This document shows, piece after piece, positions 1,351 through 61,519 of a DNA stretch of 64,000 nt. A program made the translations under genes and the position numbers. Below the pieces are notes generated by a model. The model saw only the letters and a list, made by a program, of their open reading frames with translations, made no database searches and was not told the DNA's origin. Location: positions 62,001-126,000 of the forward strand of contig NZ_FOTR01000005.1 in assembly GCF_900114645.1 (NCBI RefSeq), written 5' to 3'. Numbering within the stretch: the stretch's first letter is position 1; every line of letters begins with the position of its first letter. Origin of the DNA: Gracilibacillus orientalis. Lineage in GTDB: Bacteria > Bacillota > Bacilli > Bacillales > Amphibacillaceae.

Positions 1351-1405
1351 TTATAACGATGTTAATTGTCCGTAAAATCCCCACTGATAGAAGTCTCACT
1401 TTTAA
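1351..1405 (-). repeat. Dispersed stop-codon-abutting repeat, copy A
   Basis: On the minus strand the copy reads AAGTGAGAC, then CAGTGGGGATTTTACGG, then a degenerate TTAACATCGTTATAA end. The TAA stop of the lyase gene (1402-1404) directly precedes AAGTGAGAC. It is one of ten copies in this window sharing the same block order. Confidence 0.75.
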
Positions 1406-2550
1406 TTATTGATATTAAAATCCGGTAAAGTCTCAAAATTCTTCGGTAAATCAACTAAATATAAATTTCCGTAGCCATTTTTGTCACTGGTAAATAATAA
1501 CTGGCTACCGTCCGGGCTAAATCTGGGATGGGCGTGTACTTTTTGAACATGAAAACTGCAACGGTGTTCACACAACATTTTAGGGTTAGAGAACTCCCCA
1601 TTAACCTGATCCCAGACAATTAATTTATCAAGTGGAGCTCTTCCGTCTATTACTACTCTAGAAAATCCGTGAGAATGGGCATGCCAATTGCGAAAAGAAA
1701 ACTCTACCTCCTCCATGTTTTTATTGTTGTAGTGGATTTTCCCAAAAAAGGCTGTGCCATCCGCTCGAAAACCATGATATCCAATGTTTTCCCCATCTGG
1801 AAACCAGTATTCATGTCCGACCATTTCATAAGGTTCTTTTCGCTCACGAATCTTCCATGTCTCTTGGGTATTTAAATTAAGCCCCCATATTCGGTGATCG
1901 ACAAGTTGCCACGGCCCTTCATGACAGAATGTGATCAGGTTTTTATGTTTTGGTGACGTATTTATGTGAGTGGTAAAATTATGATCTTCGTAAACTACGG
2001 TTGCGTCTCCATCTTCAATGTTTATTTTTAGAATTTGAGAGTATGGTTTTGCTTCCATTAATTCACGATGACCCACATAACCATTCTTTAAATCAATTGG
2101 AAATTTGTTTTTAAAATCCTCATGTAAGCATGTAATAATAAATTTGCCATCCGCAGTACAGTTAATATTACCTCCAACAAGGGATTTATCTCCTTCAAAG
2201 ATTACTCTTTCTTTCAATGTGATTAAATCAATCTCGATAATTTGATGTTCTTTTCTGAAGTAGGCCGTTTGTTCAGTTGGATGTAAACACGCAGATAAAC
2301 TGCCATACGTCGTATCATGATCAGTCAACTGTACAATTTCTCCGGAGGAAATATTAAGACTGAATAAATTTGTTTTATTTTCCCTATCGGAGCAAAATAA
2401 TATCTTATTGCCGTTATCATACCAACCGTTTTCCGTAAAATACAGATGATGACTGTGTCCTGTGTAATCAGTTAATTGTGTTATGGTTACTCCTGAAAAT
2501 CGATCTTCGAAGCTTTTCCGTTCTGCTGGCCATATTGTACTTTTGGACAT
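1402..2550 (-). CDS. ogl: Oligogalacturonate lyase (PL22 family)
   Basis: Cytoplasmic beta-elimination lyase that splits short oligogalacturonides, made by pectin breakdown, into unsaturated monomers feeding the 2-keto-3-deoxygluconate route. The 382-residue length fits the seven-bladed propeller family. Visible are the N-terminal family signature GHSHHLYFTENGWYD (31-45), repeated propeller strands of the type LFCSD/LFTSDKNG, a conserved GHEYWFPDG (245-253) and the metal site Gln336, His339, His341 (QxxHxH, known to bind Mn in characterised members), with further histidines at 290-294. No other pectin genes (kduI, kduD, transporter, polygalacturonase) lie next to it, so this is an orphan copy. 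Its stop touches repeat copy A. Confidence 0.92.
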   Translation of the reverse strand: MSKSTIWPAERKSFEDRFSGVTITQLTDYTGHSHHLYFTENGWYDNGNKILFCSDRENKTNLFSLNISSGEIVQLTDHDTTYGSLSACLHPTEQTAYFRKEHQIIEIDLITLKERVIFEGDKSLVGGNINCTADGKFIITCLHEDFKNKFPIDLKNGYVGHRELMEAKPYSQILKINIEDGDATVVYEDHNFTTHINTSPKHKNLITFCHEGPWQLVDHRIWGLNLNTQETWKIRERKEPYEMVGHEYWFPDGENIGYHGFRADGTAFFGKIHYNNKNMEEVEFSFRNWHAHSHGFSRVVIDGRAPLDKLIVWDQVNGEFSNPKMLCEHRCSFHVQKVHAHPRFSPDGSQLLFTSDKNGYGNLYLVDLPKNFETLPDFNINN

Positions 2551-2805
2551 AGAATTCCAACCCTTTCTTTTTCAAAGATTTACCTGCATAGGTATTTCAT
2601 CGTCTAAATGTAATCGTATTCATTTTGTTGTTCAAAAAGAAGTATTTGTAGTAACTTTATTGTAAGCTATCCTGTTGGTTTACTCAAAGCATTTGGTAGA
2701 CAACTTATGGTTCTTATACAAGTATTACTTTTCTTGCAGGTTTACTCAGTTTTGAATTTTAGTTTGATAGTTTCCGATAAGAAAGCATAAAATTGGAGGG
2801 AGCAT

Positions 2806-3510
2806 ATGAATAGGATAGAATTCATTCGCAATGAAGAAAAGCAGTATCATGAATATTGTTATGATAATTACAAATTATTTGAAAAGGGTTCCTGGTTATA
2901 TAAACCTGTTAAGACAGTAATGGAATTAATACCTTTATTGGAAGATAAAGATCATCTTAATGTTTTGGATTTAGGTGCCGGTATAGGGAGAAATAGTATT
3001 CCTATCGCGGAAAAAATTAAAGGTAAGGGTGGAAAAGTTGTCTGTGTTGATTTACTGGATTCAGCTATTGATAAATTAATAGAATACAGTAAGAAATTTG
3101 ATGTGGAAGATATAATTGAAACAGAAAAGGCTGATATAGGAGAGTATTCAATACAAGATGATGAATATAATTTGATTGTTGCAGTATCTAGCCTGGAACA
3201 TGTTAATTCGGACAATGCCCTTGAAGATACAATTAATCGGATGGTTAAAGGCACCAAAAAAGGTGGTATTAACTGTATTATCATAAATTCAGAAGTAGAA
3301 GAACTGGAAATAGAAACAAATAAGCAGTTAGAAGCACTCATGGAGATCAATATTCCAACAGACGAAATGATAAATAAATTAAATAACATTTATAATGGTT
3401 GGAAGGTCATCAATCAGTTAGTCAAACCGTTGGAATACCAAATTATACGTAATGGAAAACCTGTTTTATTAAAATCGAATGCGATAACATTTGTGGCAAA
3501 GAAGGATTAG
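2806..3510 (+). CDS. Class I SAM-dependent methyltransferase
   Basis: A 234-residue soluble protein with the Rossmann-type methyltransferase fold. Motif I is VLDLGAGIGRNS (about residues 53-64), followed by VVCVDLLDSA with the acidic residue that binds the ribose of S-adenosylmethionine, and a post-motif II segment LIVAVSSLEHV. The start has a good ribosome binding site (GGAGGGAG, 2796-2803). The methyl acceptor is unknown. The next gene, an APH-fold kinase, starts 68 bases downstream on the same strand and may be co-transcribed. An inverted GGTATT/AATACC pair near 3519-3547 is a weak hairpin in the gap. Confidence 0.85.
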   Translation: MNRIEFIRNEEKQYHEYCYDNYKLFEKGSWLYKPVKTVMELIPLLEDKDHLNVLDLGAGIGRNSIPIAEKIKGKGGKVVCVDLLDSAIDKLIEYSKKFDVEDIIETEKADIGEYSIQDDEYNLIVAVSSLEHVNSDNALEDTINRMVKGTKKGGINCIIINSEVEELEIETNKQLEALMEINIPTDEMINKLNNIYNGWKVINQLVKPLEYQIIRNGKPVLLKSNAITFVAKKD

Positions 3511-3578
3511 TATTTTTGAGGTATTCAAAATACAGTATCAATACCTACCTTTCTCAAAATTAAAGTGAGGTGAAATGA

Positions 3579-4874
3579 ATGCTTTTGAAATTCATAGTGT
3601 ATTCAAAAGACAATAAAAGTTTGTTACTTAATCAACTAAACCAAAAGTTTTTTTTACCTGCTTTTGAATTTGATACTTTTCATATAGCGGTCACATCGAC
3701 TATTAATCATTTCTTTATGGAAGAATTCAAATTAAAAACAAACGTACTACGATGCAATTACCAAGAATTGCGTATTTATGAATTAGAAGCATTGGATGAT
3801 TTAAAAAACAATAATAAATATGTTTGGATAAAAATATCATCTATTCCATCACTAAAAGATCAAGTTTCCGACGATAAAAAGGAGCTATTACTTAACGTGT
3901 TGAATAATACATTTAATCGTTCTGTATCATGGTTTGAACCTGGTCGGCAAAAGGAAATGAGATATTGGGTTGAGCAAAAAGTATTTAAAAATGGAAGTCT
4001 TACATTAATACAAATGAGAAGCTGGGAACGAGCAGCATTATTTAAGGTTAAAACTAGTAAAACAAACTATTATTTTAAAGCAGTACCAAAAACTTTTGCA
4101 CATGAAGCACTTGTTCATAGATATATATCGGGACAATACCCTTCATATGTCCCCGAAATCATAGCAATAAATGAAAACAGAAATTGGTATATAATGAGCG
4201 AAATTCAAGGTGATCTTCTTGGAAAGTCTAAAGAGATTGAGCACTGGCAAAAAGCTGTCCATAGAATAATTGATATTCAAAAAAATTCTTATATACATAA
4301 AAAAAGGCTTCAAAAATTAGGATGTCCAGAAAGGCCTTTGGTAGAGGTGCTGAACAATTATTTAGAGCAATCTCTGGAGGGATTAGTCGATAGTAATTAT
4401 ATTTCCAAAGCTAACTACACTGTTTTGAAACAGAGTATACCTTCTATGTTGTCCCTTGTTCATCAATTAGATGACTCGTATTTACCAAAGGCTTTAGATC
4501 ATGGTGATTTGTTTGGCGGAAATATCATCGTCCAAAATGGGCAACCAATTATATATGACTGGTCGGATAGTTCATTAACACATCCATTTCTAAGTGTCGT
4601 GGTAATATTAGAAGAAATAAGTGAAATATTTTCAAACAATCAGAGCAATAGTTTGTTAGAAAGCTATATTAAAGAATGGGAAGAATTTGATACATTTGAA
4701 CATTTACTTAATGAATATCGGATTATTAGAATATTGGCTCCATTATACTATTTGACGGTTTATCAGCAATTTATATTTCCAAACTTCGCTGACAATGTAG
4801 ATAAACAATGGGTAGTTAACGATTATGTAGATCAATGGTTGAATCATATATTTAGATTGTCAGCATTTGATTAG
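3579..4874 (+). CDS. APH-family phosphotransferase (aminoglycoside phosphotransferase-like)
   Basis: A 431-residue protein. The C-terminal two thirds have the APH/choline kinase fold: the catalytic loop LDHGDLFGGNIIV (His308 region, HGDxxxxN) and the metal-binding IIYDWSD about 20 residues later. The N-terminal ~150 residues look like an unrelated or divergent lobe, making the protein longer than resistance-type APH enzymes (about 260-300). In the family this motif set supports ATP-dependent phosphorylation of a hydroxyl on a small molecule; the substrate here is unknown and antibiotic resistance should not be assumed. The start is preceded by GTGAGG at suitable spacing. Confidence 0.75.
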   Translation: MLLKFIVYSKDNKSLLLNQLNQKFFLPAFEFDTFHIAVTSTINHFFMEEFKLKTNVLRCNYQELRIYELEALDDLKNNNKYVWIKISSIPSLKDQVSDDKKELLLNVLNNTFNRSVSWFEPGRQKEMRYWVEQKVFKNGSLTLIQMRSWERAALFKVKTSKTNYYFKAVPKTFAHEALVHRYISGQYPSYVPEIIAINENRNWYIMSEIQGDLLGKSKEIEHWQKAVHRIIDIQKNSYIHKKRLQKLGCPERPLVEVLNNYLEQSLEGLVDSNYISKANYTVLKQSIPSMLSLVHQLDDSYLPKALDHGDLFGGNIIVQNGQPIIYDWSDSSLTHPFLSVVVILEEISEIFSNNQSNSLLESYIKEWEEFDTFEHLLNEYRIIRILAPLYYLTVYQQFIFPNFADNVDKQWVVNDYVDQWLNHIFRLSAFD

Positions 4875-5165
4875 TTATTACTGTTTCTAATGTGGTATAA
4901 GAAAGTTACTGTTAAAGAAAAAATCTGATTTGTAAAATCTATAGGAGCAGGGGTAAGATATATAGATTAAAAAAATCTTTTCATATTAAAAGAGTTATGA
5001 TTTTAACAACATACAATGCTTGTTCAAAAAAAGATATATAAATGCTAAGGTAGAATATATATAGACGTGAGGAATGACAACAATCATTATTACCTAAGTA
5101 TCCTTTGATTAAATTCTTAATTCACTAACTATTTGTTAAGCAGAAAAGGAGAGGAGCTAATTCCA

Positions 5166-5615
5166 TTGAAAAGAAATTTTTGGTTCATATCTTTGGGAAT
5201 GGTTTGGACCGTTATTTTTGCAAGTATGAGTTTCTATTGGGCAATGGGTGGTTTACTTGGTGTTCGATCCCTAGGAGGGGCAATATATGAAATGTCGTTA
5301 AATCCTGCTCCCTCGTTTGTTGTTGTAATATGGTTAACTGGTGTATTTAAACTATTTGGTTTTCTTTTGTTACTGATGATTCTTATTAAATGGCATAATA
5401 TTATAATAACTAAAACCCTTTATTACATGACAAAAATTGCAGGAGTAGCTTTATTTCTATACGGCTTACTCAATTTTATCACGATTACATTAAGTGCGAT
5501 CAATATTCTAGATTTTGACTTGGATTCCTCTGCAACTTTTTGGAGGTTAGTTTTTTGGGAACCTTTTTGGATGTTTGGCGGTATATGTTACTTTTTTTCA
5601 GTTAGGAAGTTATAA
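5166..5615 (+). CDS. DUF3995 family integral membrane protein
   Basis: Small membrane protein of about 149 residues with four hydrophobic helices. The motif SFYWAMGG in the first helix followed by an ExSLNPAP loop is typical of the DUF3995 family, whose function is unknown. I take the TTG at 5166 as start, because GGAGAGGAG (5149-5157) lies 8-9 bases upstream; a longer frame from ATG 5133 has no ribosome binding site. The upstream gap 4875-5165 (291 bases) is AT-rich and holds no recognised element. The gene converges on the minus-strand kinase gene; repeat copy B lies between them. Confidence 0.75.
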   Translation: MKRNFWFISLGMVWTVIFASMSFYWAMGGLLGVRSLGGAIYEMSLNPAPSFVVVIWLTGVFKLFGFLLLLMILIKWHNIIITKTLYYMTKIAGVALFLYGLLNFITITLSAINILDFDLDSSATFWRLVFWEPFWMFGGICYFFSVRKL

Positions 5616-5650
5616 TGATTGTTGACTGCCAGGCTGCTTAGCAAAGATAA

Positions 5651-5687
5651 ACGTGAAACCCCCACTGATGGAGGTCTCACTTTATAA
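5651..5687 (-). repeat. Dispersed stop-codon-abutting repeat, copy B (short)
   Basis: On the minus strand the copy reads AAGTGAGACCTCCATCAG then TGGGGGTTTCACG, and the terminal hairpin block is missing. The stop codon TAA of the downstream-ending kinase gene is formed by the repeat's own ATAAAG end (TTA TAA AGTGAGAC). Confidence 0.75.
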
Positions 5688-6239
5688 TTTAAACTCCTTT
5701 TTTAACAAGCTCGCGACTTCTTCTGCACTTAGTTCAGTATTGTTTATTCTTAGGTGATTTTTTCGTTCAATTTCCCTTGGCTCTGAATTCAATCTGTAGG
5801 CATTTAAGGAGTTAAGGAGCTCTTCTTCAGACTGTTGAATATTTCTTTTTGTTGGTTTCTGTTCAAGTCTGTTAGGTGTTTTATTACGTATTACTCTCTG
5901 ATCGACATCAGCTTCTAACTCAACGAAGTATATTTCAGCATTCTCAGATTCAAATATATGACAGATATTTTTCACAAAATTCCAATCTTCGTCTTCATTA
6001 AATGCCCATACATAGGTGAAGATCATTCCATAGTTTTCGCTTTTCGCAAAGGATTTCATTATTTCCTCGCGAAACAGCGTTGATAATCTCCATGTTTCAG
6101 TTTCGAATCCGAAGAATGGCTCTAGTAAATCGATGGTCATATGGTTATGTAATAATTTTAATTCTGTTATCTTGGCTAGCTCTTGTCCGACTGTCATTTT
6201 TCCAACAGCTTGTGGTCCAAAAATTAAGACGAATTTCAT
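5682..6239 (-). CDS. P-loop kinase-like AAA/shikimate-kinase-fold protein
   Basis: A 185-residue cytoplasmic protein with an N-terminal Walker A loop GPQAVGKMT (residues 8-16), followed by a helix and the HNHMTIDL segment typical of small nucleotide or metabolite kinases annotated as AAA family ATPase. A late RVIRNKTPNRLEQKPTKRN basic segment resembles a lid region. The phosphate acceptor is unknown. It ends inside repeat copy B and starts 58 bases downstream of the Nudix gene, in the same direction, so the two may form an operon of small phosphate-handling enzymes. Confidence 0.75.
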   Translation of the reverse strand: MKFVLIFGPQAVGKMTVGQELAKITELKLLHNHMTIDLLEPFFGFETETWRLSTLFREEIMKSFAKSENYGMIFTYVWAFNEDEDWNFVKNICHIFESENAEIYFVELEADVDQRVIRNKTPNRLEQKPTKRNIQQSEEELLNSLNAYRLNSEPREIERKNHLRINNTELSAEEVASLLKKEFKL

Positions 6240-6297
6240 TTTTTTACTCCTTTTTGTTAATCTCCTATATTGCTTCTATCAAAGATAGTATTTCATA

Positions 6298-6912
6298 TTA
6301 AAAATGCCGAGAAATTTGTTCCACAACTTGTTGTAAATAAGCTTTCCGATGTGGAACAATATTGTCTAAACTTATGTTTCTATTGATGGTGGTTTTCTGA
6401 CCGATTTCATTGATTTCAAAACCTTCCACTTTCATTTCATTCTTCTTGTCAAAGCACAAATCAGAAAAATCATTAATCGTTGTCTTTACCATTCCAGAAA
6501 CTTCTTCTTGTTGTAAGTTGAATTCATCGGTATCTTTTAAGTGGTATAGATATACATTAGCCCATTCCATGTCCAGGAAGTTATTTGTTTCGATGGGGTC
6601 TTCTAAAACTCCTAATGATATTAACTCATCAAAATTCACATCTATTCCCATTTCTTCATGTATTTCTCTGACACCATCTGTAACAGTTTCAGTTGAGAGT
6701 AAATGACCAGCAGCAGTTATGTCAAAAAGGTTAGGGAAATCTTTTTTTTCATTGCTACGTTGTTGTAAGTAAATATAATTTATGCCATCTTTTTGATCGA
6801 CGAACCAGCACTGGAATGTTTCATGCCAATATCCGCGTTTGTGCACTTCATCCCTATCTGCGATGCCTAATTCATTTCGTTTGCCATCATAAATTTTTAG
6901 TTCTTCGCTCAT
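6298..6912 (-). CDS. Nudix hydrolase (isopentenyl-diphosphate isomerase-like)
   Basis: A protein of about 204 residues carrying a full Nudix box, GHLLSTETVTDGVREIHEEMG (GX5EX7REUXEEXGU), in the middle of the fold; it would hydrolyse a nucleoside-diphosphate-linked compound with Mg. The N-terminal layout (KIYDGKRNELG, then RGYWHETFQCWF) is that of the IPP-isomerase-like Nudix branch, which also holds many uncharacterised hydrolases. The start is the ATG at 6912 because AAGGTGG lies eight bases before it; the longer frame begins with a GTG inside that ribosome binding site. It is upstream of, and codirectional with, the P-loop kinase gene. Confidence 0.85.
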   Translation of the reverse strand: MSEELKIYDGKRNELGIADRDEVHKRGYWHETFQCWFVDQKDGINYIYLQQRSNEKKDFPNLFDITAAGHLLSTETVTDGVREIHEEMGIDVNFDELISLGVLEDPIETNNFLDMEWANVYLYHLKDTDEFNLQQEEVSGMVKTTINDFSDLCFDKKNEMKVEGFEINEIGQKTTINRNISLDNIVPHRKAYLQQVVEQISRHF

Positions 6913-7139
6913 AGTATATTCCACCTTAATAAAGTTAGATTCCTATCCCTGACTATTATTCTTTCTGTCTATTAGTATTAAGTATATCACAACAAGCCCT
7001 AATTATTTCCAGTAGATTACTCAATAGTCTGTTATTAAGCAATGTAAAAAACCCCTAATGACTAGCTTTAAACGATACAGATGATAAAATAGCATCATCA
7101 TTAAATGAATGAATAAAGCAAACATAGGGGTGAAAAAAA

Positions 7140-13237: not shown

Positions 13238-14197
13238 ATGAGAGCGGATCGATTAATTAATATCATGGTTTTGTTGCAGAACAGAGGTAAAATGACTACG
13301 AAGGAATTGGCTGGTGAATTAGAAGTCTCAGACAGAACGATTATTAGAGACATGGATGCACTAAGTACAGTAGGAATACCAGTGGTTGCAGAAAGAGGCA
13401 AATGGGGAGGTTGGCGCTTATTAGATAACTTTCGAAGTAAATTAAGTACGATAACATTAGAGGAGATGAAAGCTTTATTTGTGTTTCCTTCCAAAGGGTT
13501 ACTTCAAGATTTGGGGTTAACCCATTCGATAGATCCTAGACACAATCTACTTGTATCCCTTCCAGTTCATTATCAAGCGGATGCTCAAGCAATGTGGGAT
13601 AGAATTCATATAGATGTTAGTACTTGGAGGCAATCTAAAGAAAAAGTGACTGCCTTTGAAACCATTCAACAAGCTGTTTTGGGGAATAAAAAGCTGAAAA
13701 TTCACTATGAGAAGGCTGATGGAAACAAAGAAGATAGATTGATTGAACCATTAGGCTTAGTTGCAAAAGGTAACAGATGGTATCTTGTTGCATCAAGAAA
13801 TGGAGAATTACGAAATTATCGAGCATCAAGAATTCATTCCGCAAAAATGGAAATGGAAAGATTTGAACGTCCAGCTAATTTTCATTTAGCTACGTATTGG
13901 GAACAATCAAAAGACAACTTTATCCGGAATTTGCCCGCTTATGATGTCGATGTAGAGATTGCCCCGTCCATCATAAAGAGAATAACGTTTACAGGAAAAT
14001 TTGTCCAAGTGATCGAGAAGAAAAGTGCAAATGAACAAGGTTGGCTTCCTGCAGTTTTGCGTTTCAATGATCGACAGGAAGCCATAGAGTATATTTTAGG
14101 ATTTGGTGATCAAATCAAAATAGTCTCACCTGCGCATCTTACAGATGAAATTGTGTCGTTGGCTAGGAGAGCTATTAGATTTCACCAAAATAGATGA
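13238..14197 (+). CDS. HTH/WYL-domain transcriptional regulator (YafY family)
   Basis: DNA-binding regulator of about 319 residues: an N-terminal HTH_11/DeoR-type helix-turn-helix (KMTTKELAGELEVSDRTIIRDM) and a C-terminal WYL ligand-sensing region (RLIEPLGLVAKGNRWYLVA, then RNYRASRIHSA). ATG 13238 is chosen over GTG 13229 because AAAGGGTGA precedes it at proper distance. Divergent to the DHRS1-like SDR, the likely target. Its TGA stop (14195-14197) is followed at once by TAAAGTGAGA of repeat copy C. Confidence 0.88.
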   Translation: MRADRLINIMVLLQNRGKMTTKELAGELEVSDRTIIRDMDALSTVGIPVVAERGKWGGWRLLDNFRSKLSTITLEEMKALFVFPSKGLLQDLGLTHSIDPRHNLLVSLPVHYQADAQAMWDRIHIDVSTWRQSKEKVTAFETIQQAVLGNKKLKIHYEKADGNKEDRLIEPLGLVAKGNRWYLVASRNGELRNYRASRIHSAKMEMERFERPANFHLATYWEQSKDNFIRNLPAYDVDVEIAPSIIKRITFTGKFVQVIEKKSANEQGWLPAVLRFNDRQEAIEYILGFGDQIKIVSPAHLTDEIVSLARRAIRFHQNR

Positions 14198-14251
14198 TAA
14201 AGTGAGATTTCCATCAGTGGGGATTTACGAAACGATTAGCACCATGATAAA
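14198..14251 (+). repeat. Dispersed stop-codon-abutting repeat, copy C
   Basis: The only copy with the TAAAGTGAGA end on the plus strand. It starts with zero bases between it and the stop codon of the plus-strand WYL gene and continues CATCAGTGGGGATTTACG, then ACGATTAGCACCATGATAA. The orientation follows the neighbouring gene, as in the minus-strand copies. Confidence 0.8.
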
Positions 14252-15628: not shown

Positions 15629-15735
15629 TTTATCACGGTGCTAACCGTCTGTTATCCCTACTTCATGCTTCAAGTAACACAAGGAAGCTAAGTGGGGCAG
15701 ACGCTAACACCCTGATCATAGTCTCGCTTTATAAA
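15629..15735 (-). repeat. Dispersed repeat, copy D (long form)
   Basis: The longest copy, about 107 bases. The plus strand opens TTTATCACGGTGCTAACCGT and closes GTCTCGCTTTATAAA. Between these ends are about 60 extra bases, including CTTCATGCTTCAAGTAAC and AAGGAAGCTAAGTGGGGC, which can pair internally. No minus-strand gene ends here, so this copy does not abut a stop codon. It shows that the short copies are probably internal deletions of a longer structured element. Confidence 0.75.
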
Positions 15736-19972: not shown

Positions 19973-20008
19973 CTTCGTCCACATGAAAATATGTGAACGG
20001 AGTTTTTT
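19973..20008 (+). terminator. Terminator of the GDPD gene
   Basis: CTTCGTCCACAT (19973-19984) pairs with ATGTGAACGGAG (19990-20002) with one mismatch, followed by a T-run. Repeat copy E begins directly at its end. Confidence 0.7.
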
Positions 20009-20065
20009 GTGATGGTGCTAATAGTCCTAAAACCCCCGCCGCTAATGGAAGTCTCACTTTATAAA
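20006..20065 (-). repeat. Dispersed repeat, copy E
   Basis: The plus strand reads GATGGTGCTAATAGTCC, AAAACCCCCGCCGCTAATGG, then AAGTCTCACTTTATAAA. It lies between two plus-strand genes and follows the GDPD terminator, so this copy does not abut a stop codon on its own strand. Confidence 0.7.
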
Positions 20066-30332: not shown

Positions 30333-30412
30333 TTATATATTCCTCCGTTTTCAAAAGCATATATTAACTGTTTAGTCTTTTTCTCGTACATTGCGATTCT
30401 TGCAATTTCTTT

Positions 30413-30490
30413 GGTGCTAATCGTCCGTAAAACCCCTACTTTAAGGATCAAGTAAGGGACAAAGACCCTTACTGAGGGAAGTCTCACTCT
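30413..30490 (-). repeat. Dispersed repeat, copy F (longer form, supplies a stop codon)
   Basis: On the minus strand AGTGAGACTTCC and CAGTAAGGG lead into an extra hairpin (AGTAAGGG with CCCTTACT), then GTAGGGGTTTTACGG and ACGATTAGCACC. The stop codon of the TetR gene is the TGA inside GAGTGAGAC, so the repeat itself ends the reading frame. Confidence 0.75.
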
Positions 30491-31080
30491 ATTTTCTCCT
30501 TCAGTCCCATTAGCATAGTATCCAATCCAAATTGAAATTCTTTCTCCATATCTGGAATGGTTAGATGAGTAGGAGTTGATGAGTGAGGTGTTTCCTTACT
30601 TATTCCTAAAAATCGATATTCCTCTAAGATAAAAGAAGTAATGTAGATATTGTATAGCCATAAAGAGGAGAAGGCATTTTCTTTATTCATTCCCGCATTT
30701 ATAAAAATTTGATGAAGCCTCTCGATTAGTTGTATGCGATATGGTGTAGTTGGTGCTGTTTCTGATAATACAACAGCCGCATCTTTAATGGATAAAAGCT
30801 GATCCCGCCATTGATTTGCAAACTGTCTTAATTGCTCGTCCCAATTCTCTTTCTCTACAGGAAATTGTATGTCTTTACATATTTCATCAGCTACCAGTTC
30901 AAGTAATTCTTTTTTATTTTTAATATGCCAATAAAGCGAAGCACTTTTAATACCTAATTTTTCAGCAACTTTTCTTATTGTGATACTTTTGTAACCTTCT
31001 AATTGAAGCACCTCAAAAGCTGCTTGGACAATTTTAGATTGATCAAGCATTTTATGGTGGGATTCGTTATGTGTTGTCAA
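30484..31080 (-). CDS. TetR-family repressor with tetracycline-repressor-type C domain
   Basis: About 198 residues. The N-terminal helix-turn-helix (SITIRKVAEKLGIKSASLYWH, with the SASLYWHIKNKKELL recognition part) is very close in type to classical TetR, and the C-terminal part has the TetR_C layout. The start is TTG 31080, eight bases after AAAGGAG; TTG 31086 is too close. It is divergent to a small membrane protein, and two tet-operator-like palindromes lie between them over overlapping promoters. The stop codon is supplied by repeat copy F. Confidence 0.88.
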   Translation of the reverse strand: MTTHNESHHKMLDQSKIVQAAFEVLQLEGYKSITIRKVAEKLGIKSASLYWHIKNKKELLELVADEICKDIQFPVEKENWDEQLRQFANQWRDQLLSIKDAAVVLSETAPTTPYRIQLIERLHQIFINAGMNKENAFSSLWLYNIYITSFILEEYRFLGISKETPHSSTPTHLTIPDMEKEFQFGLDTMLMGLKEKIE

Positions 31081-31147
31081 TATCAAGTCTCCTTTCTGGT
31101 CGAATAACGTTATTCTCCATTTATGGATTGATTTTTAAAAGAATCTC

Positions 31148-34752: not shown

Positions 34753-34805
34753 TTTATCACGGTACTAACCGTCTGTAAGACCCCCACTGATCATAGTCTC
34801 ACTTT
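34753..34805 (-). repeat. Dispersed stop-codon-abutting repeat, copy G
   Basis: Plus strand: TTTATCACGGTACTAACCGT, then CTGTAAGACCCCCACTGATC, then GTCTCACTTTG. On the minus strand it begins three bases after the TGA stop of the helicase gene (34807-34809). It is one of the best-conserved short copies. Confidence 0.8.
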
Positions 34806-34806
34806 G

Positions 34807-37800
34807 TCAGAACAATATTTCTCGAATATCTTCTTCTGTTAGTGTGGACGATGATTTTTTCTTCGAATCAATGACTTCTTCTATGAGGAATCTCTTTTGT
34901 TCTTGCAAATCATTCATTTTTTCTTCAATTGTACCGCGGGCAACAAGTTTGATGACTTGTACGACACTCGTCTGACCCATACGGTGGGCACGGTCAGCCG
35001 CTTGTTCTTCCACAGCAGGGTTCCACCAACTGTCATATAAAATCACTGTGTCAGCACCTGTCAGGTTGAGGCCTGTTCCACCTGCTTTCATTGAAATGAG
35101 AAACAAATCGGATTCACCTGCATTGAATCGATCACATCGTTCCATACGTTCTTCTGATGGGGTTTGTCCATCTAAATACAAAAAGGACCTTCCTTGGATG
35201 GCTAAATCTCTACCTATCATCTCAAGCATTTTCGTGAACTGAGAGAAAATTAATACGCTTCTTCCTGCAAGCCTGGATTCTTCGAGAATCTGTTTTAACT
35301 GTTCAAATTTAGCAGAACTCCCTTTATAACCCTCTACAAACAAGGCAGGATGACAACAAATCTGTCGCAATCGAGTTAGGCCGGCAAGGATTTTGATCCG
35401 ATTTTTCTGTAATGTGTCCTTGTCTAGATGCTTTAACGTATCGTGTCGAAGTTTTGCCAAATAAGCGGCATAAAGCTCCTTTTGGTCTGGTAGCAATTCG
35501 ACAGATTCTCTTGATTCAAGTTTTTTAGGTAACTCTGTTAGTACATCCTCTTTTACCCTGCGAAGTAAAAAGGGCTTGATCCGCCGAGCAATCTGTGTTC
35601 TCGTGAGATTACTATACTCCTTTATCCCTTGAAATAGCTCAGGAAAGACAATATGAAAAATCGACCATAGCTCCTCCTGATTATTCTCTACTGGTGTACC
35701 AGTTAAGGCGAAACAATTATCAGCCTGTATCTTTTTTACTGCCTTTGCTGTTTGTGTAACAGGATTTTTAAAGGCTTGTGCTTCATCAAAGAAAACGGTG
35801 TGAAAGGTTTGTTTCTTATACCAATCTATATCCATTCGTAACAACTGGTAAGAAGTAATAACAACGTCCATTTCCAATGCCTCTGTCCTTTTTTTGAACC
35901 GTTTTGTTCTATTTCCATCTACAATAGTCACTTGAATATCGGGTGCGAATTTCCTTATCTCACTATGCCAGTTATACATTAAAGATGATGGGCAAACAAT
36001 AAGAGTAGGAAGTTTCTGCTTACGGATAGTAGGAAGTTCAGACAAAATAAAAGCGATACTTTGTAGTGTTTTGCCAAGTCCCATATCATCTGCAAGAATT
36101 CCTCCAAATCCATGGCTAGCAAGTGTTTTAAGCCATTTATAGCCGTGTATTTGATAATCTCGTAATATTGCCTCTAAACTATTCGGGACTGTAAATGTCT
36201 GATTATCAGGATTTTGGATATTGTGTAGGAACTGACGAAACGATTGCTCGAATGTGAATACATGATCATCAGCGGAGTCTAGCAGCTGCATTCCTTTAAG
36301 GGTTGGTACATGTAATCCGTTTACCACGTCTTCTTGATCCTGGATGGGAGCAGCACTCCTCAAAAAACGTTGAAGCTCTTCAAACTCTCTTGTTTCCAAT
36401 GACAATAGTGCTCCGTCTCGCAAACGATAGTATTTTTGCTTTTCCTCCAAAGCCGATAAAATTTCACGTATTTGTTGGTCAGGAATGCCATCCATTTCAA
36501 ATTTGAATTCCAACCAATTGGTCCGCTCCTTTTGGATCTTTACTTTAATCTTTGGGCGGGGCTTTTCTTTGAATACCCTATTTCTCACAGCGGTTGTAGC
36601 ATATACTTGTACTAATTTTTGAATCTTCGGGAGCATATGGTATAAAAAGTCATATTCCAGTGCTTCATTATGCAAAAAGTATCCGCTATCTGTCTTGATA
36701 AATTGACTTTCATCCATCATTTGTAGGATAGCTTCTTCTTTCTCCTCATCTCTTATCAAAATAGATGCTGTCTCGATTTGGTCATTGTCCAATGGATTGA
36801 TCAGGATATTTCCATAATGAAATTCTAACCCCGCAAGAAGCCGGTTTTTTACTCGATCCAAATATAATTTTGTGACTAAAGGAGTTTTCATGATTCGGTT
36901 GGTGACAGCACCATGTAAATGGACTTGACCTAATCTTTTTAATATAGGTAGCCCTTTTTCTATGAAAAACTCTGCTTGAGTTGGAGGAATCGGAATTTGT
37001 TTGGTTTCAGAACTATCCAGCATCTGAATGAGCTCAGATAGATACTGAAAATCCTCCTCATTTAGGTGTGTTAAAATACCGTCAAACAGAAGAGCTCTAT
37101 ATGCATGTAACACTACGATCTTATCTAATCCTTTAATGGTGAGTAGGTAATCTTGATTGCGAGTTTGTGTAAAGTAAAATGATAATGGCGATGTTTCATG
37201 ATCCGAAAAGTGAAGTTTGTCGATTATTTCCTTCCCATGTGCTAACTTCACAACTGGTGCTTTAGTGAGTAAGGGCACAAGTTGTCCCCAGGGAGATGGT
37301 GGAATAACTAATAGCTGATCTATCATTTTATATTCAAATTTGTCTATTAACAGGTCATAGCCATATGCCTTTTCATCATTAATTACTTGAATAAGTTGTT
37401 GTATAATGTCGTCTGTTTCTTTTGGAAAACAATGTACCTCTGGATCGTAAGTGAATGAAGTAGTTAATACATAGCTATCACTTTCTTTCACTTGTTTAAG
37501 AAAGGTGCGGATATTTTTAACTTTCGTAGTGCCAATCTCAACTTCTATTCCAAACAGAGATTGCCCTTTATTGTTTGTAATAAGTTTGCACGTGAAAGCT
37601 AGTGGAAGCACATTTCGACTTTCAAATCGTGGCTGTTGGGCACTGGGACGGATCGGGCGATTATCAAACAGGTTCATTAGTCCTTCTGAAATATCGGGAC
37701 TAGACAAAGAGTCTGCATGAGGATTTAATTCTCTTCGCGGATGTTCAGATATCGCCAGTAAAACGGCCGCTACATGCTGACAGTCTTTTTTTATAGAAGC

Positions 37801-41148: not shown

Positions 41149-41230
41149 TTTATTACGGGACTAATCGTCTGCCATTCTTGTTTATTCGTAAAGAATCTTT
41201 AAGTACCCGGATTCCTTTAGTCTCAAGTAA
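41149..41230 (-). repeat. Dispersed repeat, copy H (divergent long form)
   Basis: Plus strand opens TTTATTACGGGACTAATCGT and closes TTTAGTCTCAAGTAAA with about 45 extra bases between, including TTCGTAAAGAATCTTTAAG. It lies about 17 bases beyond the stop of the CGNR gene. Overall it is the least conserved copy. Confidence 0.55.
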
Positions 41231-47297: not shown

Positions 47298-47340
47298 AAT
47301 CGCCCCCTAGGATTCGTCTATCCTTGGGGGCGATTTTTTT
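47298..47340 (+). terminator. Strong terminator of yuaF-floT
   Basis: AATCGCCCCC (47298-47307) pairs with GGGGGCGATT (47326-47335), extended by AGGAT/ATCCT, followed by a T-run. Repeat copy I begins at its end. Confidence 0.92.
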
Positions 47341-47394
47341 ATCACGTTGCTAATCGTCGGTACAACCCTCGCTGATGGTTAGCCTCACTTTATC
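47338..47394 (-). repeat. Dispersed repeat, copy I
   Basis: Plus strand: TTTATCACGTTGCTAATCGT, then CGGTACAACCCTCGCTGATGG, then AGCCTCACTTTATC. It lies 37 bases beyond the stop of the MarR gene and immediately after the flotillin terminator. Confidence 0.7.
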
Positions 47395-54591: not shown

Positions 54592-54607
54592 AGGAAGGGT
54601 GATTAAA

Positions 54608-55426: not shown

Positions 55427-55467
55427 TAAGAGACAATATAATTTCATAAATAGTATCCAGTAATAAC

Positions 55468-55506: not shown

Positions 55507-55511
55507 AAAAG

Positions 55512-55961: not shown

Positions 55962-55986
55962 GATTTGACTCCTCTCCAATTATAAA

Positions 55987-56313: not shown

Positions 56314-56357
56314 GATTCTAGCCTCCGATCGTAGTATAGTTGCTTACATAATCTACG

Positions 56358-56382
56358 ATTCCCATATTTAGGACAAGTAAAC
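56358..56382 (-). promoter_or_regulatory. Sigma-B-type promoter of copper protein-YdaT operon
   Basis: On the minus strand GTTTAC (plus 56377-56382), 13-base spacer, GGGAAT (plus 56358-56363). The sigma-B consensus is GTTTAA-N12..15-GGGWAW, so 5 of 6 and 6 of 6 positions match. YdaT is sigma-B-dependent in Bacillus subtilis. Confidence 0.75.
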
Positions 56383-56400
56383 TTAGATGTTGTTGGTTTT

Positions 56401-56413
56401 CGTTTCAGAAACG
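56401..56413. promoter_or_regulatory. Perfect palindrome upstream of the sugar-sensor operon
   Basis: CGTTTC-A-GAAACG lies 48-60 bases before the start of the sugar-binding protein gene. It could be bound by the operon's own AraC-type response regulator, but that is only by position. Confidence 0.3.
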
Positions 56414-56460
56414 GTATGCTATCATAATTCGTATCCATCATTGATGAACGGGAGGATGAC

Positions 56461-57441
56461 ATGAGAAGTAGTAAATTAATGAATATTATACTTATTTTTT
56501 GCTTTATTATAGCTGTGAGCTTTTCGATATATTTTTATATACAGTCTAAAGGCTTTCAATCCAAAATAATGGATGCGACCTCAAAAGAAACAGTACCGAC
56601 TTATCATTTTGTTTTAATCGGAGAAGAAATGGATCATGATTACTGGCGGTTAGTTGGTGAAGGGGCAAAAGATATGGAGGAAAAATACGATGTGTTTGTT
56701 GAATATGAAGGACCAAGGCGATCCAATCCAGAAGAACAATTGAAGCTTCTCGACATTGCGATGAAATCCAAAGTGGACGGCATCATTGTTCAAGCATTGA
56801 ATGATGAGTTTTTGCCAGTGATTAATCAAGCGGTTGAGCAAGATATCCCTGTTATAACCATTGATACTGATGCTCCTGATAGTAAGCGATCTGCCTATAT
56901 CGGTACGGATAATTATGAAGCTGGTAAACTCGCTGGTAAAGCATTGGTAGAAGATACTGCGGGTAAAGCTACTATTGGAGTCATCACGGGTAGTTTTGAC
57001 AATGCTCATCACCAATTACGTGTGGAAGGGTTTAGAGATATTGTCGAGCAAGAACCTGGAATTGAAATTGTATCGATTGAGGAGTCGAATATTACAAGAG
57101 TGATTGCGGAAGAAAAGGCGCATAATATGTTAAGTGATTATCCTGACATTACAGCTTTATATGGCACGAGTGCATTAGATGGTATTGGTATGGTTGCTGC
57201 TGCTGAATCATTAGGATTGGAAGAATCCCTATATATGATCGGCTTCGATACACTGCCAGCAAATATGGCACTGCTTGAACAGGAAAAAATGGATGTATTA
57301 ATTGGGCAAAAACCATATGAAATGGGATATCGCAGTGTAGAGTTAATGCTGGATTTGGTGAATAATAAAAAAGTACAAGATGTTTACCATACCAATGCAT
57401 CCGTGGTAAGAAAAGAGGATATAGGTGATTTTGATGATTAG
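56461..57441 (+). CDS. Membrane-anchored sugar-binding protein (Peripla_BP_4, sensor type)
   Basis: A 326-residue extracellular ligand-binding protein. The N terminus is an uncleaved-looking anchor (IILIFCFIIAVSFSIYFY) with no lipobox. The rest is a type I periplasmic-binding fold (FVLIGEEMDHDYWRLVGEGA, then KSKVDGIIVQALN, then TIDTDAPDSKR). It is the first gene of an operon with a histidine kinase and a response regulator. In described three-component systems such as XylFII-LytS-YesN, a protein like this binds sugar and signals to the kinase. Its ligand here is unknown. Confidence 0.88.
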   Translation: MRSSKLMNIILIFCFIIAVSFSIYFYIQSKGFQSKIMDATSKETVPTYHFVLIGEEMDHDYWRLVGEGAKDMEEKYDVFVEYEGPRRSNPEEQLKLLDIAMKSKVDGIIVQALNDEFLPVINQAVEQDIPVITIDTDAPDSKRSAYIGTDNYEAGKLAGKALVEDTAGKATIGVITGSFDNAHHQLRVEGFRDIVEQEPGIEIVSIEESNITRVIAEEKAHNMLSDYPDITALYGTSALDGIGMVAAAESLGLEESLYMIGFDTLPANMALLEQEKMDVLIGQKPYEMGYRSVELMLDLVNNKKVQDVYHTNASVVRKEDIGDFDD

Positions 57442-58843
57442 GATTAGATCAAAACTACTTATATACTTCGTTGCTATCCTTGTATTAGTGATTATTTTAT
57501 TTTTCATTCGTGAACAAAGTGCACAAAGAATTGTAGAATTACATGATGAACGTTCCGATCATTATTTTTTGTTAAACGAAATAACGAATAATACTGACCA
57601 GACCTATCAATCACTACAAATTTATGTTCATGAGCCAACAGATGAAAACCTCCAATACTATAAGGAGGACAAGCAACAATTAAACGAACTACAAGAGCAG
57701 TTCGTAATGGCTGCAGAAGATAGTATAGATAAGAAAAACTATGTCCATTTATTAACAAGCTTTCTGGAATTAACAGATCAAACTGCAGAAGGTGTAGCGC
57801 AAGATAACATTGAGCAATATTCCAATTATTTAAATGAAGCAGATAATAGTGCAACCTATATTCATGAGAAAACATTAGAGTTAATAAATTCAGAGCTTAC
57901 TGTTTATCAGAATTTAATAGAACTAGAAGACCAACGGGTGCAATCTTCCAAAAATATGGGGACCGCTATATTTATTTCTGTGATAATACTAAGTATCTTG
58001 TTTGCCTTGTGGTTTTCTAACGGGATTACAAGGGCGATTGAACGTCTAACAGGTGCAGCAAAAGAAATATCGCAAGGGAATTATACCGTGGAAGATGTCG
58101 TTGTGCCACAAAAAGATGAACTAAAAATCTTAACGGAAACGTTTAATCAAATGAAGTGGAATATTGTTGAGGCGATTCGGGAAATGAAGGAAAAAGCTCG
58201 GATGGCTCAATTGTTAAAGGAAATGGAATTAAAAAGCTTACAAAATCAAATTAATCCCCATTTTCTATTTAACACGTTAAATACGATTTCCAAAACATCC
58301 TATATTGAGGGAGCAGAACGAACCAGTGATTTAATTTCTTCTGTTTCTGCACTGCTTCGTTATAATATCGGTAGTCTTGACAGGGAAACTTATTTGAGAG
58401 ATGAAGTAGAGATTGTGAAGGAATATTTTTTCATTCAAAAAACGAGGTTCGGTGACCGGGTAACATTCCATCAAGATATTGAGGAGGATTGTTTGCAAAC
58501 ATCAATACCTTGTTTGACATTACAGCCTATCATTGAGAATGCCTTTATGCATGGTATTGAAGAAATGGCAGATGGTGCAGAAATTACACTTGCCATTTAT
58601 CAAAAGGAAGAAAAAGTGTGGATCGAAATTAGCGATAACGGTGTGGGTATGGATCAGGAAACGATTGATCGCTTACTAACAGCGGATGAGAATAGTGAAA
58701 CGAACAGAAAGGGACATTCCACTGGCATCGGCATGCGAAATGTAATAGACCGTTTGAAGTTATTTGATAGAGAAAGTGATGTATCCATTCAATCAGAGCT
58801 TGGTAAAGGAACGAAAGTCACCATTAAGTTACGAAAGGAGTGA
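57434..58843 (+). CDS. LytS/YesM-type sensor histidine kinase
   Basis: About 469 residues. Two membrane helices (about 5-25 and 177-197) flank an extracellular helical sensor, followed by HAMP (RAIERLTGAAKEISQGNY), the His-kinase motif NPHFLFNTLN (His276) and an HATPase domain (IENAFMHGIEEMA, then ISDNGVGMD and STGIGMRNV). Its start overlaps the stop of the sugar-binding gene by eight bases, indicating coupling. ATG 57434 is preferred over GTG 57425. It likely receives a signal through the binding protein. Confidence 0.93.
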   Translation: MIRIRSKLLIYFVAILVLVIILFFIREQSAQRIVELHDERSDHYFLLNEITNNTDQTYQSLQIYVHEPTDENLQYYKEDKQQLNELQEQFVMAAEDSIDKKNYVHLLTSFLELTDQTAEGVAQDNIEQYSNYLNEADNSATYIHEKTLELINSELTVYQNLIELEDQRVQSSKNMGTAIFISVIILSILFALWFSNGITRAIERLTGAAKEISQGNYTVEDVVVPQKDELKILTETFNQMKWNIVEAIREMKEKARMAQLLKEMELKSLQNQINPHFLFNTLNTISKTSYIEGAERTSDLISSVSALLRYNIGSLDRETYLRDEVEIVKEYFFIQKTRFGDRVTFHQDIEEDCLQTSIPCLTLQPIIENAFMHGIEEMADGAEITLAIYQKEEKVWIEISDNGVGMDQETIDRLLTADENSETNRKGHSTGIGMRNVIDRLKLFDRESDVSIQSELGKGTKVTIKLRKE

Positions 58844-58847
58844 TAAA

Positions 58848-60374
58848 ATGATAAAAGTTATGCTTGTAGATGATGAAGCGATTGAGCGCGAAGGAATCCG
58901 GATGATTCTCAGTAGAAATCGATCAAATGCTGAAATCGTAGCAGAAGCAAAAAATGGTAATGAAGCGGTTGAGCTTGCTACGCTTCATCATCCTGACATT
59001 ATTTTTATGGATATTAAAATGCCGGAATTTGATGGGTTGGTTGCGATTGAGAAGATTCTTCAAACATTACCTGAAACAAAATGTGTGATGGTATCCGCAT
59101 TTGATACTTTTCAATATGCTAAACGAGCAATGAAATTCGGAATTAAAGAATATCTGTTAAAGCCAAGCAAGATATCAGAGATACTGGAAGCTTATGATCG
59201 GATGGTTGCAGAACTATCTGAACAAAATGATGTAAACGAACGGTTAGAACAGGCGAATTCATTAGTCGAAATGGACTTTATTTTAACGCTGATGATGGAT
59301 CATGTACATGAGTTTAATACAGAAGATTGGACAAAATGGCTGGATGTCGAGGATACGAAAGGATTTGCAGCTGTATTTTCTTTTCAGGCAGAGATACTAA
59401 GGCCAGACCGTGAACAAAAAGGTAATTGGTATCGCACACTCAAAGATGGATTATCAAGGCTTCCTTACCATGCTTTCGTGGGGCCACTGACTGGCTATCA
59501 AGTTCCGATTTTAGTTAAATATGAAGCATATACCCTTGATCAGTTTGCTAGAGATGCTATTCAAGATGTTCAGCGTGATTTACACGATTGCCAGCTCTAT
59601 GTTGGAATAGGAGCAATTATCACTGATTTACAGGACTTTTCTCGTTCATACCAAGAAGCACTATATGCTTTGGAACAAGTACAATCCCACCCTGGCGCTA
59701 AATATCAAGTTTTTAATGAACAAATGGCTGAAAAAAGAAAGGAACGGATCCATTTTGAAGAAGAGAAAGAATTGCTTCATGCCATTAAAAAAGGAGATAG
59801 TCAGCAAGGGACGTATTTATTTGGCCGGTATTTTCAATCGATTCAACAACATGCTAATTATCAAGTACCAATCATTCAAAAAACGGTCGAAAACTTTTTT
59901 ATTGTATTAACGAGAATGACAAAAGAGCTTGGTCTTGATCAGGATATCCAAATGGGCTTTGATCAGTTCGAAACAGCGACACAGATCAAGGAAGCTGCTA
60001 AAGCTCACTTGCAAAGCGTTATTAAACAGATACGAGATTGGCGTTCGACCGGAGTCCATGGTCTGTTGATGCAAGCAAAGGATTATATAGAATCACATTA
60101 TCAAAGAAATATAACACTGGAGGAAGTAGCAGAGGAAGTAGGACTGAGCTCTTACTATTTGAGCAAGCTGTTTAAAGAACATTTCGAGATTACCTTTATT
60201 GAATATGTTACACAAACCAGACTGACAAAGGCAAAAGACTTATTATTAGATGATCGCATATCACTGAAAGAAATTGCTTTAACAATCGGATATAAAGACC
60301 CCAATTATTTCAGTCGAGTATTTAAAAAAGAGACAGGTCTAAGCCCGAGTGAATATCGCAAGCAGTATTCTTAA
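58848..60374 (+). CDS. YesN-type response regulator, AraC family
   Basis: A 508-residue regulator. The receiver domain has Asp8-Asp9, phospho-acceptor Asp55 (FMDIKMP) and Lys105 (LLKPSK). A long middle part of unknown fold (about 130-400) precedes the AraC-type double HTH (NITLEEVAEEVGLSSYYLSK, then LKEIALTIGYKDPNYFSRVF). ATG 58848 is right behind AAAGGAG; a longer frame inside the kinase gene is not credible. No transporter gene follows, so its target is elsewhere. Confidence 0.93.
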   Translation: MIKVMLVDDEAIEREGIRMILSRNRSNAEIVAEAKNGNEAVELATLHHPDIIFMDIKMPEFDGLVAIEKILQTLPETKCVMVSAFDTFQYAKRAMKFGIKEYLLKPSKISEILEAYDRMVAELSEQNDVNERLEQANSLVEMDFILTLMMDHVHEFNTEDWTKWLDVEDTKGFAAVFSFQAEILRPDREQKGNWYRTLKDGLSRLPYHAFVGPLTGYQVPILVKYEAYTLDQFARDAIQDVQRDLHDCQLYVGIGAIITDLQDFSRSYQEALYALEQVQSHPGAKYQVFNEQMAEKRKERIHFEEEKELLHAIKKGDSQQGTYLFGRYFQSIQQHANYQVPIIQKTVENFFIVLTRMTKELGLDQDIQMGFDQFETATQIKEAAKAHLQSVIKQIRDWRSTGVHGLLMQAKDYIESHYQRNITLEEVAEEVGLSSYYLSKLFKEHFEITFIEYVTQTRLTKAKDLLLDDRISLKEIALTIGYKDPNYFSRVFKKETGLSPSEYRKQYS

Positions 60375-60582
60375 CAGCGGGTAGAGGAGCGCTTTTTGTC
60401 TGAGAATATAATCTTGACAGGGTGGAGGTCAATTGGGCTCATTGGCGAATAAGCGAACATGTAAAGCTTTAGAAACCTATAAACACTAACCATGATTTCG
60501 ATGTGTTTTCATCAAAATGACTCGTAAAAATTGAAACAAAAGCTAGAATGAAAACTTATCCTAATCATCAGAAGATTTAAAC

Positions 60583-61443
60583 CTATTTTTTTGTTTTTTT
60601 ACGATAACCTGAAGGAGTAGTCCCTATAAATTTTTTAAACGTGCGATAAAAATGTGGTGTACTATCAAATCCACTTAGCTCGGCAATATGAGCAACAGGA
60701 TAGTCCGTTTTCCACAATAGCTCTTTAGCTTTATAGGTTCTTTTTTTGTTCAAATACACAGTAAGCCCAATGCCAGTTACTTCTTTGAAGACTCTACTGA
60801 AATGAGCTGAACTAACGTGTGCTTTCTCAGCTAATAGGCTTAGGGATATATTACCTTGAAGGTTATGGTCAATAAACGCGAATATTTCATTCATCCAAAA
60901 GCGGTTAAAGTTTTCTTCCCTAAATGCTTGATCTATTTGCTCTATACTTAAGCGAGATAAATAAAGTAATATTTGATGGGTAATTAAGATAGCGGCATGA
61001 ATAGAGCCCATTTGTTTTTCGCGTAATTCCTTATCTATATCATTAAGAAACTTTTCAAAAGTCACTTGTTTCCTTTCTGAAAGAGATATTTTATAGTGTT
61101 TGTGCTTCTTAATTTTTTCAACTATAAATATATAGGAAAAATTTTCATCAATCGGTATGGTTTGAATTAATGCAGGACTAAAAAAAACGACAGATGAAGT
61201 AACTAAATCATCCTGATAGGGTACAGCATGATGAATAGTGTCGTTGGGAACCAAGAATACATCCCCTTGGTTCATATAATAAAGCGTGTTATTAATAAAA
61301 AAAGTACCTGTACCTTTGTGAACATAAATAATCTCATGAAAATCATGCATATGGGTTGGTAATTCATTTTGGGGTTCCTTACTGCCTTTATAAACAAAGG
61401 AAAAAGGAAATGAGGAATTAGCATTTTTTTTAATAGCCTTCAT
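60583..61443 (-). CDS. AraC-family regulator with cupin sensor domain
   Basis: A regulator of about 286 residues. The N-terminal cupin (LPTHMHDFHEIIYVHKGTG, then YYMNQGDVFLVPND) binds a sugar or sugar acid; the C-terminal double HTH is ISLSLLAEKAHVSSAHFSRV and PVAHIAELSGFDSTPHFYRT. It is divergent to a dehydrogenase-led sugar-acid cluster and likely activates it. ATG 61443 lies after AGATAGGTGA. Transcription ends near a 208-base gap (60375-60582) where I see no clear terminator. Confidence 0.9.
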   Translation of the reverse strand: MKAIKKNANSSFPFSFVYKGSKEPQNELPTHMHDFHEIIYVHKGTGTFFINNTLYYMNQGDVFLVPNDTIHHAVPYQDDLVTSSVVFFSPALIQTIPIDENFSYIFIVEKIKKHKHYKISLSERKQVTFEKFLNDIDKELREKQMGSIHAAILITHQILLYLSRLSIEQIDQAFREENFNRFWMNEIFAFIDHNLQGNISLSLLAEKAHVSSAHFSRVFKEVTGIGLTVYLNKKRTYKAKELLWKTDYPVAHIAELSGFDSTPHFYRTFKKFIGTTPSGYRKKTKK

Positions 61444-61462
61444 AAGTATCACCTATCTCTAA

Positions 61463-61519
61463 TTTATCACGGTGCTAACCGTCTGTAAGATCTCCGTTGA
61501 TCATATTCTCACTTTATAT
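61463..61519 (-). repeat. Dispersed repeat, copy J
   Basis: Plus strand: TTTATCACGGTGCTAACCGT, then CTGTAAGATCTCCGTTGATC, then ATTCTCACTTTATATC. It lies within the regulatory space between the divergent AraC and dehydrogenase genes, close to the AraC start. It is nearly identical to copy G in its first twenty bases and does not abut a stop codon. Confidence 0.75.

Follow-up and report, generated by a model that had tools for sequence, protein, structure and literature searches.

A dispersed structured repeat adjoining ATAAA sites in Gracilibacillus orientalis, Bacillaceae and their neighbors, probably a non-autonomous mobile element of bcr1 type

Ten places in a 64,000-nucleotide (nt) stretch of the Gracilibacillus orientalis genome (the whole of which we call the window) carry copies of one dispersed repeat, named A to J by their order along the window. 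The repeat lies next to an ATAAA already in place, which reads TTTAT on the complementary strand, and is thereby bordered by ATAAA at each end. We consider it likely to be a non-autonomous structured mobile repeat of the Bacillaceae and their neighbors, of the same type as bcr1 (the group A Bacillus cereus repeats), entering at ATAAA. An initial annotation of the window had described a structured repeat whose ends recall IS elements or their non-autonomous derivatives; that it is a mobile, non-autonomous structured repeat is now supported.

Insertion site, form and fold of the repeat

At the place of copy J, the genome of the relative G002 reads ...GATATAAAGTAAAGATAGG, with a single ATAAA, where the window reads ...GATATAAA, then the element, then ATAAATTAGAGATAGG; G009 likewise has ATAAA there. 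The element was also absent at the orthologous places of copies A (in G002), B and C (in G002 and G015), and D and G (in three relatives). Copy H was common to the window genome and G002, and for copies F and I a comparison on both sides was impossible.

The same site recurred across the genome. In a sample of 1,799,001 of the 4,611,824 bases of G. orientalis (39%), profiles of the two element ends detected 70 left and 75 right ends at ≥13 bits; both strands of a 2-Mb random control gave two and three, respectively. The left site was ATAAAG in 53 of the 70. Pairing of the ends gave 95 elements, clusters and tandem neighbors included, with both ends in 50, only the left in 20 and only the right in 25. 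Tandem arrays had one ATAAA, or a near variant, per junction (loci L232, L233, L241, L281, and L287 and contig C6 of G. orientalis itself). With the exception of a tandem pair and of an identical pair that is part of a larger duplicated repeat, copies sharing up to 96% identity (full form) or 98% identity (short form) had unrelated flanks, a pattern that points to recent spread. Three loci, L016, L024, and L026 (G000 C13, C14, and C19), have long similar flanks and seem to be nested in a larger dispersed repeat.

The full unit measures ~142 to 160 nt and has the form ATAAA-P1 hairpin-P2 long arm-ATAAA. It opens with ATAAA-GTGARACT, followed by the hairpin P1 (GATCAGTGGGGG/CCCCCACTGATC in the sequence type of the window genome), a linker (for example, TTAGCGAAACTTATCAGG) and the long arm P2, whose outer pairs extend to the right end of the element (for example, ...CACCGTGATAAA). 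Among the 50 two-ended elements, 16 were 135 to 155 nt long, 30 were shorter than 70 nt (29 of them 54 to 58 nt) and 4 lay between. The ~55-nt unit initially described is thus a real form but not the complete one: it is mainly an internally deleted version of the full copy, in which the 5′ GTGGGGG of P1 is joined to the 3′ GTGGGGG of P2. A deletion running between these two blocks would account for its constant length. The short form was present in both sequence types of the G. orientalis genome (TATGATC and TTCCATC), suggesting at least two separate origins.

Single-sequence folds supplied the structure, which pair counts then tested. Two units folded singly gave −78.1 and −73.5 kcal/mol, with z scores of −9.3 and −9.4. 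Covariation across copies was strong: cells with a double change that preserved pairing numbered 53 in 25 copies, compared with 19.5 in shuffles, and 212 in 80 copies from named genomes, compared with 72.5 when shuffled and 23 to 66 when slid. On the initial alignment RNAalifold did not recover the P2 arm, probably owing to misalignment. The 80-copy alignment, which was made with the plus-strand model R1 and is thus biased toward plus-strand pairs, held 167 G·U and 48 A·C cells; P1 alone, whose model pairs include no G·U consensus pair, held 45 and 13. The excess of G·U over A·C suggests that folding takes place in the plus strand, whether RNA or single-stranded DNA.

The initial annotation had proposed a model search of the G. 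orientalis genome and of related genera, and that search revealed a high-copy, multigenus family. Of 100 genomes from the window's family, 60 had R1 matches; these represented 33 of the 46 genera. At least 120 named stretches matched; the 80 matches listed were mostly from Bacillaceae, Paenibacillus, and Planococcaceae, those beyond the window's family including Paenibacillus, Sporosarcina, Lysinibacillus, and others. Twenty stretches from two relatives, picked around known copies, held 40 matches in 396 kb. Zeros given by the head pattern are weak, as this pattern misses copies (G005 has no head match and 13 R1 matches); G007 is known by a head zero only. The sequence type of the window genome had no match in plasmids or phages, and the other type matched 3 plasmids among 72,556 and no phage among 50,697. 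Isolated matches far from Bacillales were seen in L250 (a 4,601-base contig of a Modestobacter sp.) and CP079755.1 (a Klebsiella grimontii plasmid).

That the ten window places form one repeat family is confirmed. All ten were recovered by the end-profile scan at 13 bits, six of them being also among the training rows of the profile; both ends were found in A, C, D, E, F, G, and J, only the left in B and only the right in H and I. The block CAGTGGGGGTTTTACGG had 4 window matches at ≤3 mismatches against 0.05 expected, and ACGGTTAGCACCGT had 14 against 1.7; the window block counts were above those of shuffles. The left end of copy I is visible by eye, below detection by the profile. The supposed left block of copy H turned out to be host gene sequence, and G002 has a better-preserved copy at the same place. 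The copies are as follows.

Copy A, 1350..1404, minus strand: short form; both ends by profile; adjoins the native stop of gene 1402-2550
Copy B, 5651..5685, minus strand: left end only; the stop TAA of gene 5682-6239 is the TAA of ATAAA
Copy C, 14197..14251, plus strand: short form, by profile; the stop TG|A spans the junction
Copy D, 15629..15732, minus strand: 104-nt form; cmsearch 70.2 bits; P2 arm retained, P1 mostly gone; absent in G002, G009, and G015
Copy E, 20006..20062, minus strand: short form; both ends by profile
Copy F, 30405..30492, minus strand: 88 nt, by profile; gene 30484-31086 stops at the element's own TGA
Copy G, 34753..34807, minus strand: short form, by profile; the stop TGA overlaps the left end
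Copy H, 41149..41172, minus strand: right-end remnant only; right end 17.9 bits, left half host gene
Copy I, 47338..47393, minus strand: short form; right end by profile, left end by eye
Copy J, 61463..61517, minus strand: short form; both ends by profile; clean empty site in G002

Near the site of copy E, G002 bears a family copy in the opposite orientation (L121, near 980-1250); G009 and G015 have none.

Orientation and stop codons

In line with established knowledge, the leading strand was identified by its richness in G. The plus strand of the repeat lay on the strand with negative GC skew in 74 of the 95 G. orientalis elements (P = 4e-8), and in G117, 21 of 24 copies had the same replication-linked orientation (P = 0.0003). 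In these two genomes the minus strand, with TTTAT first, is hence mostly on the G-rich strand, i.e., the lagging-strand template. Non-seed copies of G117 and G086 together were in the biased orientation in 17 of 20 cases. The bias in G. orientalis held in all four gene contexts (33:14 between codirectional leading genes, 15:2 between codirectional lagging genes, 16:3 in convergent pairs and 9:2 in divergent pairs), and orientation therefore tracks replication, not transcription.

Placement next to stop codons, as initially described, was borne out for copies A, B, C, F, and G, where the gene ends lie at −3, −4, −1, −9, and −1, respectively, relative to the first A of ATAAA; copy I is near a gene end as well, 38 nt from a stop by its coordinates. 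Gene calls here are simple reading-frame calls as opposed to published annotation. Some of this adjacency is automatic because ATAAA contains TAA. Against a background of 2,930 viable ATAAA sites in G. orientalis, 144 of them with a stop in place, a stop coincided with the TAA of ATAAA at 10 of 68 left ends where 3.3 were expected (P = 0.0017); among lagging-oriented elements this rose to 9 of 57, with 1.4 expected (P = 1e-5). Other genomes gave 9 of 103, with 2.5 expected (P = 0.001), and none in the TGA frame, which truncation would yield as well. The enrichment beside stop codons is thus present in G. orientalis and in other genomes, and the preference for gene ends suspected at the outset exceeds the ATAAA expectation in two separate sets, the main cause being the target sequence. 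Stops are favored since A-TAA-A is a target site and an insertion there retains the stop. The extra preference beyond the target sequence is not fully explained; tolerance of such insertions could account for it.

Two other readings of the stop pattern were weighed. It might be an artifact, the left end bringing in TAA and TGA so that any insertion within a gene ends the frame; the gene at copy F does end in the TGA of the element, and ATAAAGTGA has stops in two frames. Yet the proteins of copies A, B, C, and G keep their native ends within 0 to 3 residues: compared with their G002 orthologues without the element, they end at the same residue (A and B), one residue earlier (G) or three residues earlier (C). 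For B, the G015 protein, whose gene lacks the element, likewise stops at this residue, and for the gene at copy A the G009 and G015 proteins are one residue longer. These four are therefore not gross truncations, and with the TAA frame exceeding the TGA frame by 10:3 in G. orientalis and 9:0 elsewhere, an artifact appears improbable. A role as structured RNA or regulator at the 3′ ends of mRNAs, favored by positive selection next to genes' stops, would fit the strong covariation and the enrichment at stops beyond the ATAAA target. However, most copies are away from stops (a gene end falls within −10 to +3 of the left end in 16 of 70 in G. orientalis), only H of the eight alignable window copies has a counterpart in the same orientation in a relative, and orientation in G. 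orientalis tracks replication rather than transcription. That orientation speaks for insertion and tolerance over a regulatory job, which we regard as very unlikely.

Search for a mobilizing enzyme and the origin of the repeat

Across 100 genomes, Y1 matches accompanied the element more often than its absence (53 of 60 genomes and 25 of 40, respectively; P = 0.003, Spearman 0.31, both uncorrected for descent), and the G. orientalis genome contains a single 35-residue Y1 remnant. TnpB (PF07282) had no match in that genome. Copies occurred in genomes with no Y1 match: G002, G004, and G011 have 35, 35, and 19 head matches, respectively; G029 and G084 have at least 10 R1 matches each, as does G015, in which all 30 scored candidates (i.e., at least 30) were R1 matches and neither Y1 nor RVT_1 was matched. 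Conversely, R1 was unmatched in G006 despite 15 Y1 matches there. Element ends lay beside Y1 genes at only 1 of 30 loci from 16 genomes (L074, on one side only), a weak negative since the loci reach ~1.5 kb on each side and the end profile, trained on the window's own genus, has limited sensitivity.

One locus (L079:1429-2250) encodes a 273-residue Y1 protein, which we take to be similar to the REP-associated tyrosine transposases (RAYT). Its relatives were found in 49 of the 100 family genomes and were unmatched in 13 of the 23 copy-rich genomes (those with ≥20 R1 matches); no element end was present at L079, the sole RAYT-like locus inspected. RVT_1 was unmatched in 10 of the same 23 (G. orientalis, G015, G063, G074, G077, G085, G086, G098, G105, and G129). 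A resident Y1, RAYT, TnpB, or reverse transcriptase as obligatory partner was not upheld. A recurrent neighboring gene acting as the autonomous partner was likewise rejected, no transposase-like family being among the 25 largest in open reading frames around 58 of the 80 matches. At L060:1703-2259, group II intron matches (RF02001, RF01998, and RF00029) begin ~0.2 kb from an element copy.

These results bear on two alternative origins. The repeat could be an IS200/IS605 or REP/REPIN derivative moved in trans by a Y1 HUH transposase or a RAYT that has since been lost from some genomes. The absence of terminal inverted repeats, the hairpins near the ends, the target retained at one end, the replication-linked orientation, the association with Y1 and the Y1 remnant all fit such an origin. 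Against it stand the single Y1 locus with an element end, the genomes that bear copies but gave no RAYT-like or no Y1 match, the Y1-rich G006 that has no R1 match, the lack of a TnpB match in G. orientalis and the asymmetry of the fold, which lies on the plus strand. Descent from IS200/IS605 right ends, to which the hairpin end had initially been likened, is not upheld, although Y1 may have been a mobilizer in the past; on balance we hold this origin to be possible but doubtful. A SINE-like retroelement, in which the 3′ AUAAA of a plus-strand RNA pairs with TTTAT-3′OH at the fork and primes complementary DNA, would account for the plus-strand fold with its G·U asymmetry, ATAAA at both ends, the minus strand on the lagging template, the lack of inverted repeats and deletions between hairpin bases. 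RVT_1 is nonetheless unmatched in G. orientalis and in 9 of the 22 other genomes with ≥20 R1 matches, and there is little chance that this is the answer.

For the favored reading, a non-autonomous repeat of bcr1 type entering at ATAAA, the mechanism would be as follows. An enzyme supplied in trans would place the repeat next to TTTAT in the single-stranded lagging-strand template at replication forks, in a manner resembling the IS200/IS605 mode, and the plus-strand fold, or its RNA, may be what is recognized or copied. Several observations weigh against this reading. No mobilizing enzyme fits all copy-rich genomes, and the G·U excess places the fold on the plus strand while a simple IS200/IS605-like action needs minus-strand hairpins. 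The place of copy J in G015 is ATAAC, not ATAAA. With clusters and tandem neighbors among them, the 95 elements are not independent. The orientation bias fell short of significance in G086 alone (10:6, P = 0.45), in the combined seed copies of G117 and G086, 20 in all (14:6, P = 0.12), and in 68 matches in named 8-kb loci (40:28, P = 0.18); leading-oriented elements had a stop at TAA in 1 of 13 cases, with 0.9 expected.

Known repeats and the nested Bacillaceae-1 RNA

No Rfam family spans the whole element at gathering score in the window and selected loci; only RF01690 lies inside it. Literature searches by topic and by sequence gave no title describing the repeat, the sequence look-up returning chance letter matches. 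The closest likeness, by description and not by sequence, is to bcr1, in size, TTTAT, intergenic location and hairpins, as given in passages of PMC6542083, PMC2267715, and PMC3446304. The TTTAT motif described for bcr1 ends and insertion in PMC6542083 has its equivalent here in the empty site of copy J, the tally of left sites and the tandem junctions. The bcr1 passages compared describe that repeat as confined to the B. cereus group, whereas matches to the repeat studied here span 33 of the 46 genera in one family and reach other groups as well; they contain neither strand bias nor stop preference, both features of the present repeat.

Minimal derivatives of IS200/IS605 elements and REP/REPIN sequences share hairpins near the ends, the lack of inverted repeats and a target at one end. 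They differ in that no Y1 partner with matching ends was found for the present repeat, which appears to be structured on the strand opposite to that expected and has ATAAA on both sides. The orientation of IS608-type elements is tied to the replication fork, specifically the lagging-strand template, according to PMC6006769, a likeness to IS200/IS605 elements that the repeat displays in G. orientalis and G117. A DDE-type miniature inverted-repeat transposable element was rejected, as the ends ATAAAGTGAGAC and CACCGTGATAAA in the alignment form no terminal inverted repeats. In 21 of 25 alignment rows the right end is GATAAA, and, as initially noted for the hairpin, it is as a rule not followed by a T-run in the rows shown; an intrinsic terminator was rejected on this basis, no terminator scan having been made. 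BOX elements of Streptococcus pneumoniae are modular, with two end modules and variable inserts between them, and resemble the repeat in this modular build, by description only. Their sizes and copy numbers are tabulated in PMC2267715.

RF01690, or Bacillaceae-1, is listed as an RNA in a 2010 paper (PMC2864571). Thirteen loci picked for long copies of the repeat held ten Bacillaceae-1 matches (in eight loci), all of them inside the element, in the loop of P1 or in the stretch separating it from P2, and in either orientation. Loci with a nested Bacillaceae-1 were L225, L226, L237, L253, L255, L262, L279, and L290, and also L062 and L227. Loci chosen without regard to Bacillaceae-1 held three matches, two of them within the element (L227 and L235) and one, at L414:7531-7597, away from any R1 match. 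Bacillaceae-1 is itself repeated in high copy number: 75 of the 100 family genomes have matches, at up to all 45 candidates scored per genome (i.e., at least 45). It is hence a module within some long copies, yet is also independent of R1 and dispersed by itself. The nested hairpins of L060, L062, L225, L237, L255, and L279 terminate in CACAGGAYGTG or its complement, a motif that, we presume, resembles CsrB-type CsrA sites.

A more far-reaching proposal, which we put forward tentatively and think rather unlikely to be right, is that this is a widespread element of Gram-positive bacteria with a conserved RNA-like fold of the plus strand, that the mobilizer belongs to a class other than Y1 transposases and resident reverse transcriptases, that insertion takes place at TTTAT in single-stranded fork DNA and that the repeat is a modular carrier of hairpins such as Bacillaceae-1, a new mobilization route that would also explain bcr1.

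If the favored reading is right, bcr1, described as confined to a single species group, would become an instance of a class of mobile elements found across the family, and the orphan Rfam RNA Bacillaceae-1 would be recast as a dispersed hairpin module. The position of repeats on stop codons would be explained by the target sequence together with a presumed tolerance of insertion there. The ATAAA target, the plus-strand fold and the fork-linked orientation would provide testable marks in the search for the missing mobilizer.

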